Virus record (IMG/VR): IMGVR_UViG_3300006871_000024
Location: 1-22,827 of that record
Length of the DNA stretch: 22,827 bases
Source: a virus
Strand: one strand, 5' to 3'
Numbering within the stretch: the stretch's first letter is position 1; each line of letters starts with the position of its first letter. The position numbers and the translations under genes were made by a program. The notes under the pieces were generated by a model. That model did no database searches. It saw nothing but the letters and a program-made list of their open reading frames with translations, and was not told the DNA's origin. Below are positions 607 through 22,792 of the stretch, piece by piece.

Positions 607-2040
607 ATGGTTAATACGCTATCAAGTAAACGTAAGGCAACAGGGACCAAGCATATTCACAGATATGAACCGAGAGGAGGATGCAAAGAAGCGTTTGAGT
701 CCACAGAGGAAGAGATCTTAGTAAGTGGTCCAGCCGGTACAGGCAAGTCGCGAGCTTGTCTTGAAAAGATCTACCTAGTGTGCTTGATGACTCCCAATGT
801 TCGCGCTTTGATTCTTCGTAAAACGTTGCGTTCTCTCGGTTCTACTGCTCTTGTGACGTGGCGAAATTGGGTGGTTAAAGAAGCGTTATTGACTGGTGAT
901 GTTGTCTACTATGGAGGGTCCAGCGAACAACCGCCCCAGTACCGTTTTAAGAATGGCTCTTCCGTCACCATTGGTGGTCTAGACCAGCCCACCCGGATCA
1001 TGTCATCCGACTATGACATCATCTATATCCAGGAAGCAACCGAGATCACGCTTGATGATCATGAAATGTGCACGACTCGGCTTCGCAACTGGACACTCCC
1101 ATTTCAACAGTTGATTATGGACTGTAACCCGGCCGGGGATAAGCACTGGCTAAAGCGGAGAGCTGATGACAGAGCTACCAGTCTGATCGAATCACGGCAC
1201 GAAGACAACCCGCGACTGTTCAATGTGGACGGAACGAAAACTCGTGAAGGCGAAAAGTACATCGCCATTCTCGATAAGCTCACCGGGGTGCGCTACCTCA
1301 GACTCCGTCTTGGTAAATGGGTTAGTGCTGAGGGCATTATTTACGAGGAATTCGATCGAGCAACCCATGTGCTACCTTGGTCTTATGACGATGAGGGTAA
1401 CCGACTCGCTCTGCCTTATGAGTGGCCGCGTTTCTGGTCAATAGACTTCGGATACGTACACCCGTTTGTGTTGAAGTGTTACGCATTAGGTCCAGACGGG
1501 GAATTGTATATGTACCGTGAGATCTACATGACTGGTCGCACGGTACAAGAGCATGCTGCAACGATTATGAATGAAGTAACCAGAGTTAAGAAAGTTGAAT
1601 GGATTGATCATTTTAATAAGGTAACTAGATTCCGTGAGGAGATTGAATGGATCGAACCACAACCACAAGCAGTTATCTGTGATCATGATGCTGAAGATAG
1701 GCGTACATTCGAGAAAGCAACAGGCTTACCTACCATTCCAGCAATTAAGAAAGTGAATGCTGGAATTAACGCAATGAAGGAACGTCTCAAGGTTGATGAG
1801 AATGGCTTGGCTCGCTTGTACTATATGGAGGATGCCCTAGTTGAACTTGATCAATCTCAAAAGGACAGTCTACTTCCGACGTGCACAGTAGACGAACATT
1901 CCTCGTACGTATGGAAGACAAACAGTGATGGTAGGAAACTTGATGAACCAGTGAAGCGAGACGACGATGGGGAGGATACAGACCGGTATATGGTTGCTTA
2001 CTTTGACCTTAGAGGAATAGCGCGCGCAACACAGATCTAG
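607..2040 (+). CDS. terL: terminase large subunit (packaging ATPase/nuclease)
   Basis: The DNA-packaging motor translocates genome concatemers into proheads and cuts them. At 477 residues it has the full family length. The ATPase domain shows a Walker A motif GPAGTGKS (residues 41-48), a Walker B motif IIYIQE (138-143) with the catalytic Glu, and a coupling motif DCNPAG (172-177). The RNase H-like nuclease domain starts near residue 275, with candidate metal ligands D280 (in SIDFGY), D359/D361 in the CDHDAED block, and acidic residues around D457-D459 just before YMVAYFDL. A Trp/Glu-rich segment at about 329-352 lies within the nuclease domain and looks like an insertion. The gene starts two bases after the small subunit, consistent with coupled translation. 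In-frame TTA leucine codons occur at least four times. Confidence 0.95.
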   Translation: MVNTLSSKRKATGTKHIHRYEPRGGCKEAFESTEEEILVSGPAGTGKSRACLEKIYLVCLMTPNVRALILRKTLRSLGSTALVTWRNWVVKEALLTGDVVYYGGSSEQPPQYRFKNGSSVTIGGLDQPTRIMSSDYDIIYIQEATEITLDDHEMCTTRLRNWTLPFQQLIMDCNPAGDKHWLKRRADDRATSLIESRHEDNPRLFNVDGTKTREGEKYIAILDKLTGVRYLRLRLGKWVSAEGIIYEEFDRATHVLPWSYDDEGNRLALPYEWPRFWSIDFGYVHPFVLKCYALGPDGELYMYREIYMTGRTVQEHAATIMNEVTRVKKVEWIDHFNKVTRFREEIEWIEPQPQAVICDHDAEDRRTFEKATGLPTIPAIKKVNAGINAMKERLKVDENGLARLYYMEDALVELDQSQKDSLLPTCTVDEHSSYVWKTNSDGRKLDEPVKRDDDGEDTDRYMVAYFDLRGIARATQI

Positions 2041-4568: not shown

Positions 4569-5933
4569 ATGCCTGACACGATTACAATTCCTGAGAATGA
4601 AGATCAGCTTAGGGAAACGCTAACTAACAAGCGTGCGATGAGTGAACTGCTTAAGGATCCGGATAAGTTTACCAATTTCGTTAACGACCATGTCAAGCTC
4701 CGTCTCTCAAAAGACCCCGCTATTCTTGGCCAGGTTAGTGAGCAGCACGAACAGTTTATGATTAATTGGCTTCGTGACCACACCAATGAAGATTTGGACG
4801 TGGTGGCCAAGCGGCTGAATTTGGACAATCCTGGTGCCCGCAATCGTGTTCGTCCGAATACGGTGTACAACAAGAAAGCTGCCGGGGCTCCACACGATGG
4901 AATGTTCGCTAGTGCGGCTGATCTCGTTTACTCGATTTATAATGAGTCTTGGAAGGATGAGCGCACGGCGGCTAACCTTGGCACGCTGAAGAATGCGCTT
5001 TCTAGTCTCAAGCCTAGTGACGGTGGCTTCCTCATTCCGGAGATCCTCCGGGCGGAATTGCTCCGTGTTGCGCTGGAAAATGCAATTGTTCGTTCCCGTG
5101 CTCGCGTTATTCCTATGGACAGTCTCACTGTTCCGTTCCCTACTGTGGACAGTACTTCCAACGTGTCCAGTGTGTACGGTGGCGTTACGGGTTACTGGAC
5201 TGAGGAAGGAGCGACCCTCACTGAGTCCAAGCCGCGTTTCGGTCGTGTTGAATTGCGAGCCCAGAAGCTCGTTCTTTACACCGAAGTCCCGAATGAGCTT
5301 TTGCAAGACGCCAGTCCATCACTTGCTGCATTCATCGGCGATATTTTCCCTGAAGCTATCGCCTGGTTCGAGGATGTGGCATTCTTCGTCGGTGGTGGAG
5401 TTGGTGAGCCTCTCGGCTTCCTGAATGCGCCGTGTGCGGTTAACGTTGACCGTACGGGATCTAGCTCCGGTACCGTTGTGTGGGCCGACATTGTAAACAT
5501 GTATGCCCGGATGCTTCCGCAGTCTTTGCGGAATGCTGTCTGGATTGTTTCTCCGGACACCCTCCCCGCACTGTTCCAAATGGTCATGACCGGTGGTACT
5601 TCTCCAATCATGCTTGGTGGCCAGGCTGGTTTTGCTACTGGTTCAGCTGCTCCGCCTATGACCATGCTCGGTCTCCCGATTATCGTTTCGGAGAAGGCGC
5701 GTACGCTTGGAACAATTGGTGACGTTAACCTGGTGGACTTCGGTTTCTACTTGATCGGTGATCGCCAGGCAATGAGTGCCAAGCAGTCGGAAGATTACAA
5801 GTTCCAGAGTGACGTTACCGCCTTCCGTGTGACTGAGCGGCTTGACGGTCGCCCGTGGCTGCTTTCGCCCATCACTCCGCAGAATGGCAGCGCTAACACC
5901 CTTTCTCCGTTCGTTAAGCTCACTACAGCGTGA
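4569..5933 (+). CDS. major capsid protein, HK97 fold
   Basis: This is the shell protein. At 454 residues it has an N-terminal helical, charged domain of about 105-125 residues (delta/scaffold region), then a linker around NKKAAGAPHDGM that is a plausible protease-cleavage zone. The HK97-type core starts with the N-arm and E-loop region, where SSLKPSDGGFLIPEILRAEL at about 140-160 is a hallmark. Later landmarks are PFPTVDSTSNVSSVYGGVTGYWTEEGA, LVLYTEVPNELLQDASPSL, and the terminal P-domain/A-domain strands DFGFYLIGDRQAM and RVTERLDGRPWLLSP. The gene follows the protease directly. All of its roughly 45 leucines avoid TTA and favour CTC, CTT and CTG, unlike the flanking packaging genes, which points to selection for high expression. 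Confidence 0.95.
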   Translation: MPDTITIPENEDQLRETLTNKRAMSELLKDPDKFTNFVNDHVKLRLSKDPAILGQVSEQHEQFMINWLRDHTNEDLDVVAKRLNLDNPGARNRVRPNTVYNKKAAGAPHDGMFASAADLVYSIYNESWKDERTAANLGTLKNALSSLKPSDGGFLIPEILRAELLRVALENAIVRSRARVIPMDSLTVPFPTVDSTSNVSSVYGGVTGYWTEEGATLTESKPRFGRVELRAQKLVLYTEVPNELLQDASPSLAAFIGDIFPEAIAWFEDVAFFVGGGVGEPLGFLNAPCAVNVDRTGSSSGTVVWADIVNMYARMLPQSLRNAVWIVSPDTLPALFQMVMTGGTSPIMLGGQAGFATGSAAPPMTMLGLPIIVSEKARTLGTIGDVNLVDFGFYLIGDRQAMSAKQSEDYKFQSDVTAFRVTERLDGRPWLLSPITPQNGSANTLSPFVKLTTA

Positions 5934-6374: not shown

Positions 6375-6387
6375 AAAGGAATTAGAC

Positions 6388-6912
6388 GTGCGTTCTTTGG
6401 GTTTTGTCACCGACTACACAGTCGGAATTAACCCCGTTGCTGATATCGCGGCGGGTGCCAACACGGGTAAGCGCGTTCACATGCGTAATTACGATACGCT
6501 TGGTGTGCTTTTCTTCAAGAATGCGGCCAGTGCCGGCACTGACACCGTGATCATCACTCTTCAGGAGCACAACGCCAACACCGGCGGTACTTCACAGAAC
6601 TTGGCCGCCATCACGGATTGGTATTACAAGTCCACTGCTGCTGCTCTCGCGGGTACTGAGGCATGGACTGAGGTTACTCAGGCAGCAGCCGCTACGCTTT
6701 CCATGGCGGATGCCGGCCCGATTAAGGCAGCTAACCAGGCAATGGTTTATTTCGATGTGGAAGCGGGGGCCCTTTCGGCTGGCTTTGAATGGCTTTCTGT
6801 TAACATCGCTGACCCTGGTTCTGGTGGCACCATTCTTGGTGGAGTTTTCTATATCATGAGTGGATTGAAGATGCAACGTCGGCCAGATCTTCTCGCTCAG
6901 CCGAATGCGTAA
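6388..6912 (+). CDS. putative capsid decoration or minor head protein
   Basis: The chosen GTG at 6388 has an SD AGAAAGGA seven bases upstream, giving 174 residues starting MRSLGFVTDY. Starts farther upstream lack an SD and run through the small membrane ORF at 6213. The protein is Ala/Gly/Thr-rich, beta-strand-like, without Cys, and ends with FYIMSGLKMQRRPDLLAQPNA. A region such as NYDTLGVLFFKNAASAGTDT resembles soluble virion beta-proteins. Its position two genes after the capsid suggests a decoration protein or head fibre. Leucine codons avoid TTA as in the capsid gene, consistent with high-level expression. The family assignment is inference. Confidence 0.7.
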   Translation: MRSLGFVTDYTVGINPVADIAAGANTGKRVHMRNYDTLGVLFFKNAASAGTDTVIITLQEHNANTGGTSQNLAAITDWYYKSTAAALAGTEAWTEVTQAAAATLSMADAGPIKAANQAMVYFDVEAGALSAGFEWLSVNIADPGSGGTILGGVFYIMSGLKMQRRPDLLAQPNA

Positions 6913-10584: not shown

Positions 10585-11550
10585 ATGGGACCTACTGTCT
10601 CACTTGAATTCAAAGCGGATAATGCTGACTTGATGAGAGCAGTTGATCAGGCTTCAGATGGTATCGAAGAAATGGCTGATCAGGTTGGCAAGAGCACACG
10701 CGATATCCGTAGCCATGCCAAGGCATTTGATGCAATGGGGGAGAAGACAGATGCCGCCGAGAGCAAATTCACCGGATTTAAGGACGTACTAGATGGCGGT
10801 AAGAGCGCGCTTGAAGCGTGGGGTGATGAAAGCTTGTCCACAACGGACAAGTTGATTGCGTTTGGTCAAGCAGGCGCGGATATGGCGGGTGGTCTAACCG
10901 ACTTCCTCATTCCTGCAATTAGCAGTATGGCCACTCTGCTACGTGGTGGACTGGCTAGTGCCATGACATTCGTTGCTGCTCACCCGTTGATGATTGTGTT
11001 AATTGCTTTAGCTGCTGTATTCGTTCTGCTATGGATGAATTCGGAGAAGTTCAGAGACATTGTTATCGGAGTGTTCAACACCGTCGGTAGTTTTATTAAG
11101 GACACTTTTGGAGGTGCTATTAATTGGGTTAAAGATGCATGGAATACGATGGTTAGTTGGTTTAGTAGCTTGCCTCAAAAGATTGGCGCCGCTTTTGGTG
11201 CTCTAGGTGGAATTGTTGGTGATGTGTTCAAGGGTGCTCTTAATCTGGTAATTGGATATATTAACTGGTGGGTTGATCGGATTAACAACTTGATTTATGG
11301 AATCAATCTGATTAATCCATTCAGCGATATTCCAAACGTCCCGCACATTCCCCGCCTCCACACAGGAGTGGCCACGGTGCCCGGAGCACCCGGTACAGAA
11401 ACCCTTGCCCTTCTCCAGGCAGGGGAACGGGTGTCTACTGCCTCAGAATCGTCTAATGGAAACACTATCTACGTAGCAGGAGATAGCCGCTCATGGCTTT
11501 ATCAAGCTATTAAGGAAGGAATTCGAACTAAGCAGTTGGTGATCAGATAA
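10585..11550 (+). CDS. tape measure protein, unusually short
   Basis: This 321-residue protein has the tape-measure layout. An N-terminal helical region (SLEFKADNADLMRAVDQASDGIEEM) is followed by a long helical stretch, a hydrophobic segment (about 130-151: VAAHPLMIVLIALAAVFVLL) and Trp/Phe/Gly-rich amphipathic repeats (GVFNTVGSFIKDTFGGAINW, then NTMVSWFSSLPQKIGAAFG). It ends with a Pro/Gly stretch (PRLHTGVATVPGAPGTETLA) seen in many actinophage tape measures. It lies between the chaperone/gp10 genes and the tail-tip gene. Tape measures usually have over 600 residues. At about 0.15 nm per residue this would set a tail of about 48 nm, which is inference. Confidence 0.85.
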   Translation: MGPTVSLEFKADNADLMRAVDQASDGIEEMADQVGKSTRDIRSHAKAFDAMGEKTDAAESKFTGFKDVLDGGKSALEAWGDESLSTTDKLIAFGQAGADMAGGLTDFLIPAISSMATLLRGGLASAMTFVAAHPLMIVLIALAAVFVLLWMNSEKFRDIVIGVFNTVGSFIKDTFGGAINWVKDAWNTMVSWFSSLPQKIGAAFGALGGIVGDVFKGALNLVIGYINWWVDRINNLIYGINLINPFSDIPNVPHIPRLHTGVATVPGAPGTETLALLQAGERVSTASESSNGNTIYVAGDSRSWLYQAIKEGIRTKQLVIR

Positions 11551-17823: not shown

Positions 17824-18174
17824 ATGTTCGTAACTAACGCAACAATTTATCTCAACGGGCAGGCTGTTGTGGTTGAAGCTCAAATTGAGATGCCGGAACC
17901 GCCCCCGGTCAACGTTGGTGAGGAAATTTACCAATTACAGTCACGGATGCGCCGATTGGAAGCTATCGCCACCAATCAAGGTGGAATGCGTGCCTCAGTG
18001 GAGAGGATTGGCGCACTGATCCAAGCTGTTCAACGGGGTGAGAAAATCCAGGCAATCAAGGCTTTGCGAGAGGCAACCCCCGGGTTGGGAATGAAGGAAG
18101 CAAAAGACATTATCGAGACCACTTGGGACACTTTTTACGCGAATGATGCTCAAAGAAGTCGGCCGCCGTTCTAA
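17824..18174 (+). CDS. protein with a ribosomal L7/L12 C-terminal-like domain
   Basis: This 116-residue protein has a beta-like N-terminus (MFVTNATIYLNGQAVVVEAQ) followed by a polar helical middle. Its C-terminal segment (about 66-100), with GEKIQAIKALREATPGLGMK followed by EAKDIIE, closely matches the bL12 C-terminal domain pattern of K-x2-IKxxRxxTGLGLKEAKDLVE. In ribosomes that domain recruits translation factors. In phages the fold may serve as a binding module, which is unproven here. It opens the early/accessory region after the structured RNA region, and its TAA overlaps the next gene's ATG (TAATG). Confidence 0.75.
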   Translation: MFVTNATIYLNGQAVVVEAQIEMPEPPPVNVGEEIYQLQSRMRRLEAIATNQGGMRASVERIGALIQAVQRGEKIQAIKALREATPGLGMKEAKDIIETTWDTFYANDAQRSRPPF

Positions 18175-19213: not shown

Positions 19214-19231
19214 GGGAGCCCTTGGGCTCCT
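19214..19231 (+). terminator. small hairpin before the tRNA
   Basis: GGAGCC-CTTG-GGCTCC (19215-19230), with a GT extension. No T-run follows. The short distance to the tRNA start at 19234 makes processing or RNA boundary as plausible as termination. Confidence 0.35.
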
Positions 19232-19233
19232 GA

Positions 19234-19307
19234 ACCCCCTTAGCCCAATAGGTAGAGGCAGCGCATTTAAAATGCGTTTAGTACCGGTTCGAATCCGGTA
19301 GGGGGTA
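19234..19307 (+). tRNA. tRNA with anticodon UAA (Leu, UUA codon), short variable loop
   Basis: Seventy-four bases fold as a cloverleaf. The acceptor ACCCCCT pairs with AGGGGGT (19234-19240/19300-19306). The D arm is GCC/GGC (19243-19245/19257-19259) with GGT in its loop. The anticodon stem is GCGCA/TGCGT (19261-19265/19273-19277) around loop TTTAAAA, so the anticodon is TAA (19268-19270). The variable loop is TTAGT, five bases, and the T arm is ACCGG-TTCGAAT-CCGGT (19283-19299). The discriminator is A (19307), and CCA is not encoded. A UAA anticodon reads UUA leucine, but leucine tRNAs normally have a long variable arm, so charging identity is uncertain. Confidence 0.85.
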
Positions 19308-19329
19308 CTCGTTCGAGAGAGGAAAAGAA

Positions 19330-20760: not shown

Positions 20761-20820
20761 ATGTACGAAATAGAGAGGCCGATTACTGGAAATGGAGTGA
20801 TCGTCTGTGATCAACCTTAA
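20761..20820 (+). CDS. possible leader peptide-sized ORF (19 aa), doubtful
   Basis: ATG 20761 follows the preceding stop by two bases and encodes MYEIERPITGNGVIVCDQP. It overlaps the helicase start at 20807 by 14 bases. The length, the weak SD (AGGG) and the overlap make it uncertain. It could couple translation into the helicase or be chance. Confidence 0.2.
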   Translation: MYEIERPITGNGVIVCDQP

Positions 20821-22792
20821 AAAGAAGGGACGACGGATCGAAATTCGTGCTAATGAGCCCTTGAAGGGAATGCGCACCACTATTCCGGGAGCCTATGAAA
20901 CGGTTGGCGGCTACTGGACGGTTCCATGTACCATTGAAACTCTCCAATTGCTACGGACAAAATTTGGTAACCGCCTTGTGTTGCATGATGAGCTTACACG
21001 TTGGGCTCAGGCCATTATGGAGAGTCGTGAGTCTATGTCCAAGCTCGCGGCATCCTCCGATGCCAAATTAGAGCACCTAAGTAGGGTTGCTCCTAAGCTA
21101 GCGCGTGCCATGCGGAAACGCACCTACCAACGTGTAGGAGCACGCTTTATTGCAGACAGTTCCGCTAGTCTGGTCGCCGATGATCCTGGTTTAGGTAAGA
21201 CCCTAGAAGCAATGGGAGGGCTGTTAGAGGGGCAAATTCCAGGACCCTACTTAGTAGTTGCTCCCAAAACTGCAGCAGATACCGTCTGGCGACGCCACAT
21301 CAACGAATGGCTTCCCGCCGATCATCGTGCGGTTATTTTGCCAGAATTGTGGCAGGATCGCGATTACACAATCCGGATCACTCGATACACAGAGAAAACC
21401 TGGTTAATCGTCCACCCCGATATCCTTTTAGTACAGTCCTATTGGGTGTGTCATATCTGTGGTAAGTGGACAGTTGAAAATGAGAAAAAGAAACTGGAGT
21501 GTGGTAATGGAATCAGAAGCAAATATGTAGCACATGAGCGGTCTAGAAAAACGAAAAAAATCTTGAAACCCCGGTACCCCAAACTGTTTGATATTGAATG
21601 GGGTGCTGTGATCATTGATGAATCACACGAAATGCTCATCAAGCGAAAAGGGCTCCCTACACAACGTCGCCGTGGTGCAGACATGCTTAAGCTCCGTCCT
21701 AGTGGGACGAAAATCGCTATGTCTGGAACACCATTCGAGGATTCTCCCCATTTGCTTTGGGGAACGCTTAATTGGTTGGACCCCAAGACATATTCCGCTT
21801 TCTATCGTTGGGCGGAAATGTTTTGGACTAAGGGCGGGTATACCGGGTGGGAAATCGGCGAATTCCGTGAGGACAGAGAGCAACTTTTGTGGGACTCTCT
21901 TAAATCTGTCTGCATTAGACGAACCAAAGCTGAGGTAGCTAAAGATCTTCCGCCCAAGCTTTACGTAGGGACTCATCTGGACCCCAAGGACGAAAACAGC
22001 CCTGTAGGTATCTGGCTCCCTATGGAAGGGAAGCAACTAGACGCCTACCAACAAATGGAGGAACAGAGTTTAGCTGATTTAGAATCTGGACGGCTTGAAG
22101 CCATTTACGCTCTAGAGGAGTTGACTCGATTAAAGCAAATGGCGTGCGCATATGGAGATATCGAAACACGAATTGTGAATTACAAAGACAAGATCACGGG
22201 ACGCCAAATTAGAGGACCAAAACACTTCTATGTACCTAGTCTACCATCAAATAAATTCAATTGGATTGTCAATAGTTTGGAGGAATGGGGCTACCCTCGT
22301 CGTCCAATTGATAAAGTGGTAATCGTGAGTTTTTACACAGGAATTCTGAATATGATGCGGCGAGGTATCGAGACCCATTTTAAGAGAAAAGAGAGTAATG
22401 CATTATGCACTGCTATCACTGGACTCACTGCTAGTCATGATCGACGCCGTATTATTGACGATTTTAATCGTCGTGACCGTGGCACGCCGCAAATCATGAT
22501 GTTGAATGTACGTGCGGGTGGAACAGCAATTACAATTGACAGCGCTGATCGGATGGTATTCATTAGCGAAACCAAGAAACCTTCACAGCAGCAACAAGCG
22601 GAGGATAGAATCCATAGGGTTAGTAATCCAAGACATTGTATGTACTATTACCTTCGTTCTAAAGAGACAGTGGACATTGGAACATCCATTGTGAACCAGC
22701 AATCGGATAGAGTTTCCAAGCGGTTACTTGATGGTCGCCGTGGTGTGGAGTATGTCCGTCGAGTGCTGGACCTTAGTAGAGGTTTCGACTGA
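20807..22792 (+). CDS. SNF2-family helicase/ATPase (SMARCAL1-like, with zinc-binding insert)
   Basis: This superfamily 2 DNA-dependent ATPase likely acts in replication or repair by remodelling or annealing DNA. The 661 residues have helicase motifs in order: motif I DPGLGKT (126-132), motif II DESH (271-274), motif III SGTPF (306-310), motif V NVRAGGTAI (567-575) and motif VI QAEDRIHR (597-604). The N-terminus (GAYETVGGYWTVP) resembles the HARP-like region of SMARCAL1. Between motifs I and II a Cys group (C215, C218, C232: CHICGKWTVENEKKKLEC) suggests a zinc-binding insert. Start GTG 20807 has GGAG nine bases upstream. The coding region uses at least ten TTA codons, including the Leu of motif I (GGTTTAGGT). 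Confidence 0.9.
   Translation: MINLKKKGRRIEIRANEPLKGMRTTIPGAYETVGGYWTVPCTIETLQLLRTKFGNRLVLHDELTRWAQAIMESRESMSKLAASSDAKLEHLSRVAPKLARAMRKRTYQRVGARFIADSSASLVADDPGLGKTLEAMGGLLEGQIPGPYLVVAPKTAADTVWRRHINEWLPADHRAVILPELWQDRDYTIRITRYTEKTWLIVHPDILLVQSYWVCHICGKWTVENEKKKLECGNGIRSKYVAHERSRKTKKILKPRYPKLFDIEWGAVIIDESHEMLIKRKGLPTQRRRGADMLKLRPSGTKIAMSGTPFEDSPHLLWGTLNWLDPKTYSAFYRWAEMFWTKGGYTGWEIGEFREDREQLLWDSLKSVCIRRTKAEVAKDLPPKLYVGTHLDPKDENSPVGIWLPMEGKQLDAYQQMEEQSLADLESGRLEAIYALEELTRLKQMACAYGDIETRIVNYKDKITGRQIRGPKHFYVPSLPSNKFNWIVNSLEEWGYPRRPIDKVVIVSFYTGILNMMRRGIETHFKRKESNALCTAITGLTASHDRRRIIDDFNRRDRGTPQIMMLNVRAGGTAITIDSADRMVFISETKKPSQQQQAEDRIHRVSNPRHCMYYYLRSKETVDIGTSIVNQQSDRVSKRLLDGRRGVEYVRRVLDLSRGFD

Follow-up and report, generated by a model that had tools for sequence, protein, structure and literature searches.

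Leucine tRNAs and the variable arm

In the passages available of one article (PMC4033280), a long variable arm is described as specific to serine, leucine and bacterial tyrosine tRNAs, and bacterial tRNA genes are called 'surprisingly uniform'. Two reviews, in the parts accessible, define leucine tRNAs by this arm, those of animal mitochondria aside. In animal mitochondria, tRNA-Leu(UUR) reads UUR codons without a long arm and is charged through A73 and A14, according to excerpts of a 2023 review (PMC9976931). The present analysis concerns a tRNA gene of a soil phage, at positions 19234–19307 of the IMG/VR virus record IMGVR_UViG_3300006871_000024, the whole of which (22,827 bases, 48% G+C) is referred to here as the window. 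This gene combines the leucine anticodon UAA with a variable loop of five bases.

The bacterial class II tRNA-Leu(UAA), including bldA of Streptomyces, shares with the window tRNA the anticodon, A73, the D-loop residues A14, A15 and G18G19, and U48. It differs in its variable arm, of 12–17 bases in the genes scored compared with five, and in having G9 and a different D-stem where the window tRNA has A9 and C12 C13. The mitochondrial tRNA, compared here by description alone, is organellar, is served by a mitochondrial leucyl-tRNA synthetase (LeuRS) and has an unstable anticodon arm. Among the titles and abstract openings listed by searches of openly licensed PubMed Central papers, none describes class I leucine tRNAs of bacteria or phages; earlier notice elsewhere is possible. 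A leucyl tRNA of Streptomyces coelicolor was reportedly the subject of Trepanier et al. 1997 (Gene), who may have noted a short arm.

A class I leucine tRNA gene in the window

ARAGORN calls the gene as tRNA-Leu(taa) at 19234–19308, and Rfam RF00005 matches it over 19234–19307 with 62.5 bits against a gathering score of 29. The tRNA is 74 nucleotides (nt) long without an encoded 3' CCA, and all 20 scored positions of the acceptor, D, anticodon and T stems are paired. Its features are as follows.

19234..19307, plus strand: class I (short variable loop) tRNA-Leu, anticodon UAA (ARAGORN; RF00005, 62.5 bits; 20/20 stem pairs)
19247..19255, plus strand: leucine-type D-loop, A14 A15 U16 N17 G18 G19 U20 A20a G21 (sequence)
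19268..19270, plus strand: anticodon TAA, reading UUA (ARAGORN, anticodon at position 35)
19278..19282, plus strand: variable loop TTAGT, five bases, U48 last (sequence)
19307..19307, plus strand: discriminator base A73 (sequence)

A class II tRNA would have a variable arm of at least 10 bases; the window tRNA instead has the leucine anticodon, the leucine D-loop, A73 and a loop within the 5–7 bases of a class I tRNA-Leu family. The initial annotation had picked out the UAA anticodon with a five-base variable loop as odd for a leucine tRNA, and this is confirmed. It had also named classing of the tRNA as a pseudogene as a refuting outcome, and the intact stems speak against that.

The gene is read as making a leucine tRNA of class I shape. 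It is one member of a wide family that spans phages, actinobacterial chromosomes and some plasmids and has UAA, UAG, CAA, CAG and GAG forms. Recognition by the host LeuRS would rely on A73, U8:A14, the Levitt pair A15-U48, G18G19 and A20a, leading to charging with leucine. The tRNA would read UUA in phage mRNA and enlarge the host pool, with codon supply as its probable selected function, in a phage that makes free use of A-ending leucine codons. Taken as a whole, this explanation (a real class I leucine tRNA, charged by LeuRS, supplying the phage with a UUA reader and belonging to a wide family) is considered very probable.

A stable hairpin (about -12 kcal/mol) at 19214–19231 ends two bases 5' of the tRNA. 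It scans as terminator-like on the minus strand and could act in processing or in termination.

Leucine identity

According to the sections available of the 2023 review, the leucine determinants of Escherichia coli are A73, the A15-U48 pair, G18G19 and A20a, one bacterial LeuRS depends critically on U8:A14, and leucylation has been reported for tRNA-Leu variants that lack the long arm (PMC9976931). Every one of these determinants is present in the window tRNA. They recur in 72 distinct short leucine tRNAs of phages and bacteria, a list restricted to leucine calls: U8, A14 and A15 are found in 72/72, while U48, A73 and the G18G19-A20a spacing are each found in 71/72. In the bacterial members found by pattern search the D-loop letters were fixed by the pattern, and U8, U48 and A73 were free. 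The anticodons are UAA (42), UAG (14), CAA (nine), CAG (five) and GAG (two), and pair types vary on both sides at 19 of the 20 stem positions. In Lentzea cavernae, where RF00005 was the only means of finding the tRNAs, all eight leucine tRNAs combine the D-loop with U48 and A73, and none of the 52 others does.

Leucine identity is further indicated because UAA is exchanged for UAG among relatives of the same phage group, which were found with no restriction on the anticodon, and leucine is the sole amino acid common to these two anticodons.

Related genes in phages and plasmids

The window's own group was assembled through terL (607..2040), and nine long relatives were covered over all or almost all of their length. 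ARAGORN found a leucine tRNA in six of the nine, three with UAA and three with UAG, the variable loops being 5, 5, 5, 5, 5 and 6 bases long. The UAA tRNA of one relative, G011 (locus L081), is weak, with 17/20 stem pairs and a TTA share of 1.6% in that phage, and is perhaps decaying.

Beyond this group, a blastn search with the window tRNA matched 362 phage records, including phages of Mycobacterium, Streptomyces, Thermobifida, Pseudomonas, Rhizobium and enterobacteria. At least one short leucine tRNA was present at 12 of 15 named phage loci that were read; L096 had a long-arm leucine tRNA alone, and L102 and L103 proved to be methionine and arginine tRNAs. The short tRNA-Leu genes of Kykar, Genie2, Moogle, JLBYU32, ZC08, LPCS28 and NoPa have the short form and the D-arm of the window tRNA, and in the records read the named-phage genes are plainly annotated as tRNA-Leu. 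They differ in their hosts and in their anticodons (UAA, UAG or CAA), and in the Felixounavirus type the variable loop reaches 7 bases. In Pseudomonas phage ZC08 (L097), one tRNA cluster contains both a long-arm Leu(UAG) and, 180 bases from it, a short Leu(UAA).

Pattern searches of viral contigs gave little. A 16-base anticodon-arm pattern hit six loci, with an ARAGORN tRNA in one of them, a class II Leu(UAA) of 86 nt (L004), and stricter D-arm patterns hit only two loci and none.

By BLAST, related genes also lie on nine PLSDB records, including plasmids of Mycobacterium, Curtobacterium, Bifidobacterium and Nostoc. The Mycobacterium avium plasmid pS2b (L322) has 25 tRNA genes within 12 kb, one of them a short Leu(UAA); the PLSDB table shows no tRNAs there.

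Class I leucine tRNAs on bacterial chromosomes

The same form is found on bacterial chromosomes. A pattern for the UAA form was present in 45 of 297 genomes of the Lentzea cavernae family. A pattern open to all leucine anticodons was present in 44 of 246 sampled Actinomycetota genomes, in two of 149 Acidobacteriota genomes and in seven of 32 named genomes (Amycolatopsis, two Lentzea, Umezawaea, two Nonomuraea and one Acidobacteria metagenome-assembled genome, MAG). The reversed control gave 0 in every one of these searches. In Streptomyces the pattern was present in 0/9 genomes, yet one of the nine, G347, has a class I Leu(CAA) whose D-loop is one base longer. Since the pattern missed this gene, the pattern counts are lower bounds. 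No class I leucine tRNA was found in complete E. coli genomes at E <= 1e-3, which, from one query, is weak evidence.

The chromosomal genes of Lentzea, Amycolatopsis, Umezawaea and Streptomyces (CAA) have the class I shape, D-loop, A73 and U48 of the window tRNA, and the Leu(UAA) of the Lentzea family is 0.77–0.79 identical to it with the anticodon and variable region masked. They differ in being chromosomal and in being the sole form detected for some anticodons. In Acidobacteria MAG42, contig C140 (L229), short UAG, CAA and UAA and long-arm GAG leucine tRNAs are clustered, perhaps as a phage or mobile tRNA cluster.

Four genomes were examined for their complement of leucine tRNAs. For Lentzea cavernae, RF00005 gave 63 hits, and ARAGORN readings of the stretches around them yielded 60 distinct tRNAs. 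The long-arm leucine genes are CAG and two GAG; UAA, UAG and CAA are present in the short form only, with extra short CAG and GAG genes. In the Actinomycetota genomes G408 and G519, all eight hits of at least 80 nt in each and the two pattern-found short leucine genes in each were read, all hits lying on contig C1. Here UAG, GAG and CAG have the long arm and UAA and CAA are short. In Streptomyces sp. Ag109_O5-1, for which the eleven hits of at least 80 nt and four shorter ones were examined of 74 hits, the long-arm genes are two GAG, CAG, UAA (bldA-like) and UAG, and CAA is short. This class I Leu(CAA) (L339, C1:8785069-8785143) is the sole Leu(CAA) found in the genome, and its D-loop resembles that of Leu(CAA) in Streptomyces phage Genie2.

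Leu(CAA) was therefore detected solely as class I in 4/4 examined genomes, and Leu(UAA) solely as class I in 3/4. UUG in these bacteria would be read by an armless leucine tRNA, unless another finder shows long-arm copies. Class I leucine tRNAs are, to judge from such gene complements, most likely charged with leucine and needed. That the class I form is the sole one detected for Leu(CAA) or Leu(UAA) in these chromosomes is also the strongest reason for taking the phage gene to be functional and leucine-charged.

Codon use in the window and its relatives

Codon use was counted in 30 open reading frames (ORFs) chosen by hand from the ORF list. Three of the genes are listed here.

607..2040, plus strand: terL, 4 TTA among 41 leucine codons (codon counts)
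4569..5933, plus strand: major capsid gene, no TTA, low in all A-ending codons (Phage_capsid PF05065; codon counts)
20807..22792, plus strand: SNF2-type helicase gene, 11 TTA among 60 leucine codons, one in motif I at 21191 (protein scan, codon counts)

The initial annotation had proposed that TTA is avoided in capsid genes, from its absence in the capsid gene and in the gene at 6388 and its presence in terL and the helicase gene. The counts themselves hold. The capsid gene has TTA at 0/46 leucines (binomial P = 0.001 against the window-wide share of 73/521), and the 6388 gene has 0/13 when read from GTG at 6388, or 1/14, at 6382, in the longer ORF from 6319. Given the window-wide share, the 6388 gene is not unusual, and the capsid gene alone is so among capsid, terL, helicase and 6388 genes. 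TTA use does differ among the 30 ORFs (permutation P = 0.0002), and TTA is present in 21 of them.

Avoidance specific to TTA in the capsid gene was rejected, the whole class of A-ending codons being avoided there: in four-fold boxes 22/253 codons end in A, compared with 860/3180 elsewhere (P = 2e-12), and without the CTN box 21/214 compared with 786/2886 (P = 1e-9). The depleted codons include GTA, CAA, CTA, ACA, GCA, AAA and AGA. Highly expressed genes often avoid A-ending codons, and the capsid bias looks like the codon choice of such a gene rather than avoidance of UUA.

Among the window and its relatives, the only match between anticodon and codon use that survives correction for A-ending codons concerns UAG. 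Corrected in this way, CTA use is highest in those three of the ten phages that have a UAG tRNA (1/120 groupings). Thermobifida phage P318 (UAG) fits this CTA pattern, and P1312, with no leucine tRNA within the 50 kb read, uses little CTA. The raw TTA share of leucines is 10–14% in three UAA phages and 2.7–4.8% in six phages without a UAA tRNA. In a terminase alignment of 37 sequences, 49 of 60 TTA codons and 195 of 228 CTA codons fall in majority-leucine columns. Codon supply is thus supported for UAG, in three phages; for UAA the data are only compatible with it.

Several observations weigh against the explanation preferred here. In the terL of the window itself, only two of the four scorable TTA sites are in majority-leucine columns. 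A clean match between UAA and TTA is lost after correction for A-ending codons (30/120 groupings without G011, 149/210 with G011), G011 has a UAA tRNA but a TTA share of only 1.6%, and the codon-anticodon grouping tests ignore shared ancestry. The tRNA is dispensable in the phage group, since three of the nine long relatives (G014, G021 and G023) lack a leucine tRNA. Finally, a single search tool, RF00005 at E <= 0.001, underlies the absence of long-arm genes from the chromosomes.

Gene content and host

Protein scans of the window revealed terminase, portal, head protease, capsid, tape measure, endolysin-like and SNF2-type helicase genes. No end repeats were found in the 22,827-base record, which is a fragment of a phage genome. 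An identical terminase is encoded on two other contigs (L008 and L009). The nearest named terminase, at 50%, is that of Thermobifida phage P1312. Among cellular genomes the best hits come from a Thermomonosporaceae MAG (53%) and from Amycolatopsis, Lentzea, Umezawaea and Streptomyces; hits in other phyla are weaker. This kinship suggests that the host is likely to be a soil actinobacterium. At 36 terL loci from cellular genomes there was no leucine tRNA within the stretches covered, so the host cannot be linked through the tRNA.

Two further genes deserve mention. A 116-residue ORF at 17824–18174 contains part of the C-terminal domain of ribosomal protein L7/L12 (PF00542, 31 bits, cut-off 25.9) and would be a second translation-related gene close to the tRNA; it has no tblastn match in the nine relatives. 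The tape-measure-like protein at 10585–11550 has just 321 residues, which is short when set against the tape measure gene of Thermobifida phage P1312, 4,974 bases long.

Alternative explanations

The initial annotation had linked the gene to bldA. A phage with its own UUA reader would be spared waiting for a developmentally regulated host tRNA, and its late genes would avoid TTA for the same reason. The window tRNA does read UUA, and the relatives of its terL include Streptomyces prophages and phages. The Streptomyces host that this requires is, however, backed by distant terminase kinship only, and nothing found speaks for the advantage tied to development that it also needs. The codon data do not fit either, with avoidance covering all A-ending codons and TTA occurring in most ORFs. 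The bldA-like Leu(UAA) of Streptomyces (L336) is a class II tRNA of 84 nt, unlike the 74-nt window tRNA and not its source, and relatives have UAG in place of UAA at the same site, or no leucine tRNA. The link has accordingly only a very small chance of being correct. Evasion of a host defence, in which an armless tRNA replaces host leucine tRNAs cut by a nuclease in the long arm or elsewhere, is unlikely rather than remote. We know of no nuclease directed against the long arm of leucine tRNAs. The same armless form lies in the chromosomes of many Actinomycetota and is hence no mark of a phage trick, and the match between UAG and CTA points to codon use.

A phage tRNA may also replace a host tRNA gene destroyed by prophage integration. 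Such tRNA-dependent lysogeny is described for mycobacteriophages in the available part of one article, with tRNA-Leu-CAA in one case, phage Gaia (PMC10865867). In the window, no integrase was seen in two overlapping sets of ten scanned proteins, which is a weak argument as the record is a fragment; this explanation is given a small chance. That the gene is a pseudogene, or a tRNA for another amino acid with a changed anticodon, is highly improbable. With the anticodon and variable region masked, Asn (0.74) and Thr (0.73) tRNAs of Lentzea are near the window tRNA, compared with 0.77 for the class I Leu(UAA), and a human tRNA with a leucine anticodon and no long arm scores as Met, as far as the accessible text of PMC8450103 goes. 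Against this stand the leucine identity elements and intact stems of the window tRNA, the leucine anticodons across the whole short family, and the chromosomal class I genes as the sole UUG readers detected.

Implications

Probably, class I leucine tRNAs are a standing second leucine form in bacteria. In many Actinomycetota, among them Streptomyces, UUG would have no other reader, and the same would often hold for UUA or CUA; phages and plasmids across phyla would carry the class I form with the anticodon fitted to their own codon use. The rule that bacterial leucine tRNAs always have a long arm would be wrong, and one LeuRS would accept both shapes in the same cell. If armless tRNAs are indeed the sole readers of some codons, the LeuRS of a single cell has two tRNA shapes to charge, leucine has to be told from serine without help from the arm, and isotype calls relying on the arm would flag genuine genes as suspect. 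Streptomyces, as a model genus, and laboratory phages allow this to be tested. Phages offer a natural set of armless tRNAs for testing codon supply and escape from nucleases that cut the variable arm, and the long and short pair of ZC08 is natural material for comparing charging and nuclease resistance.
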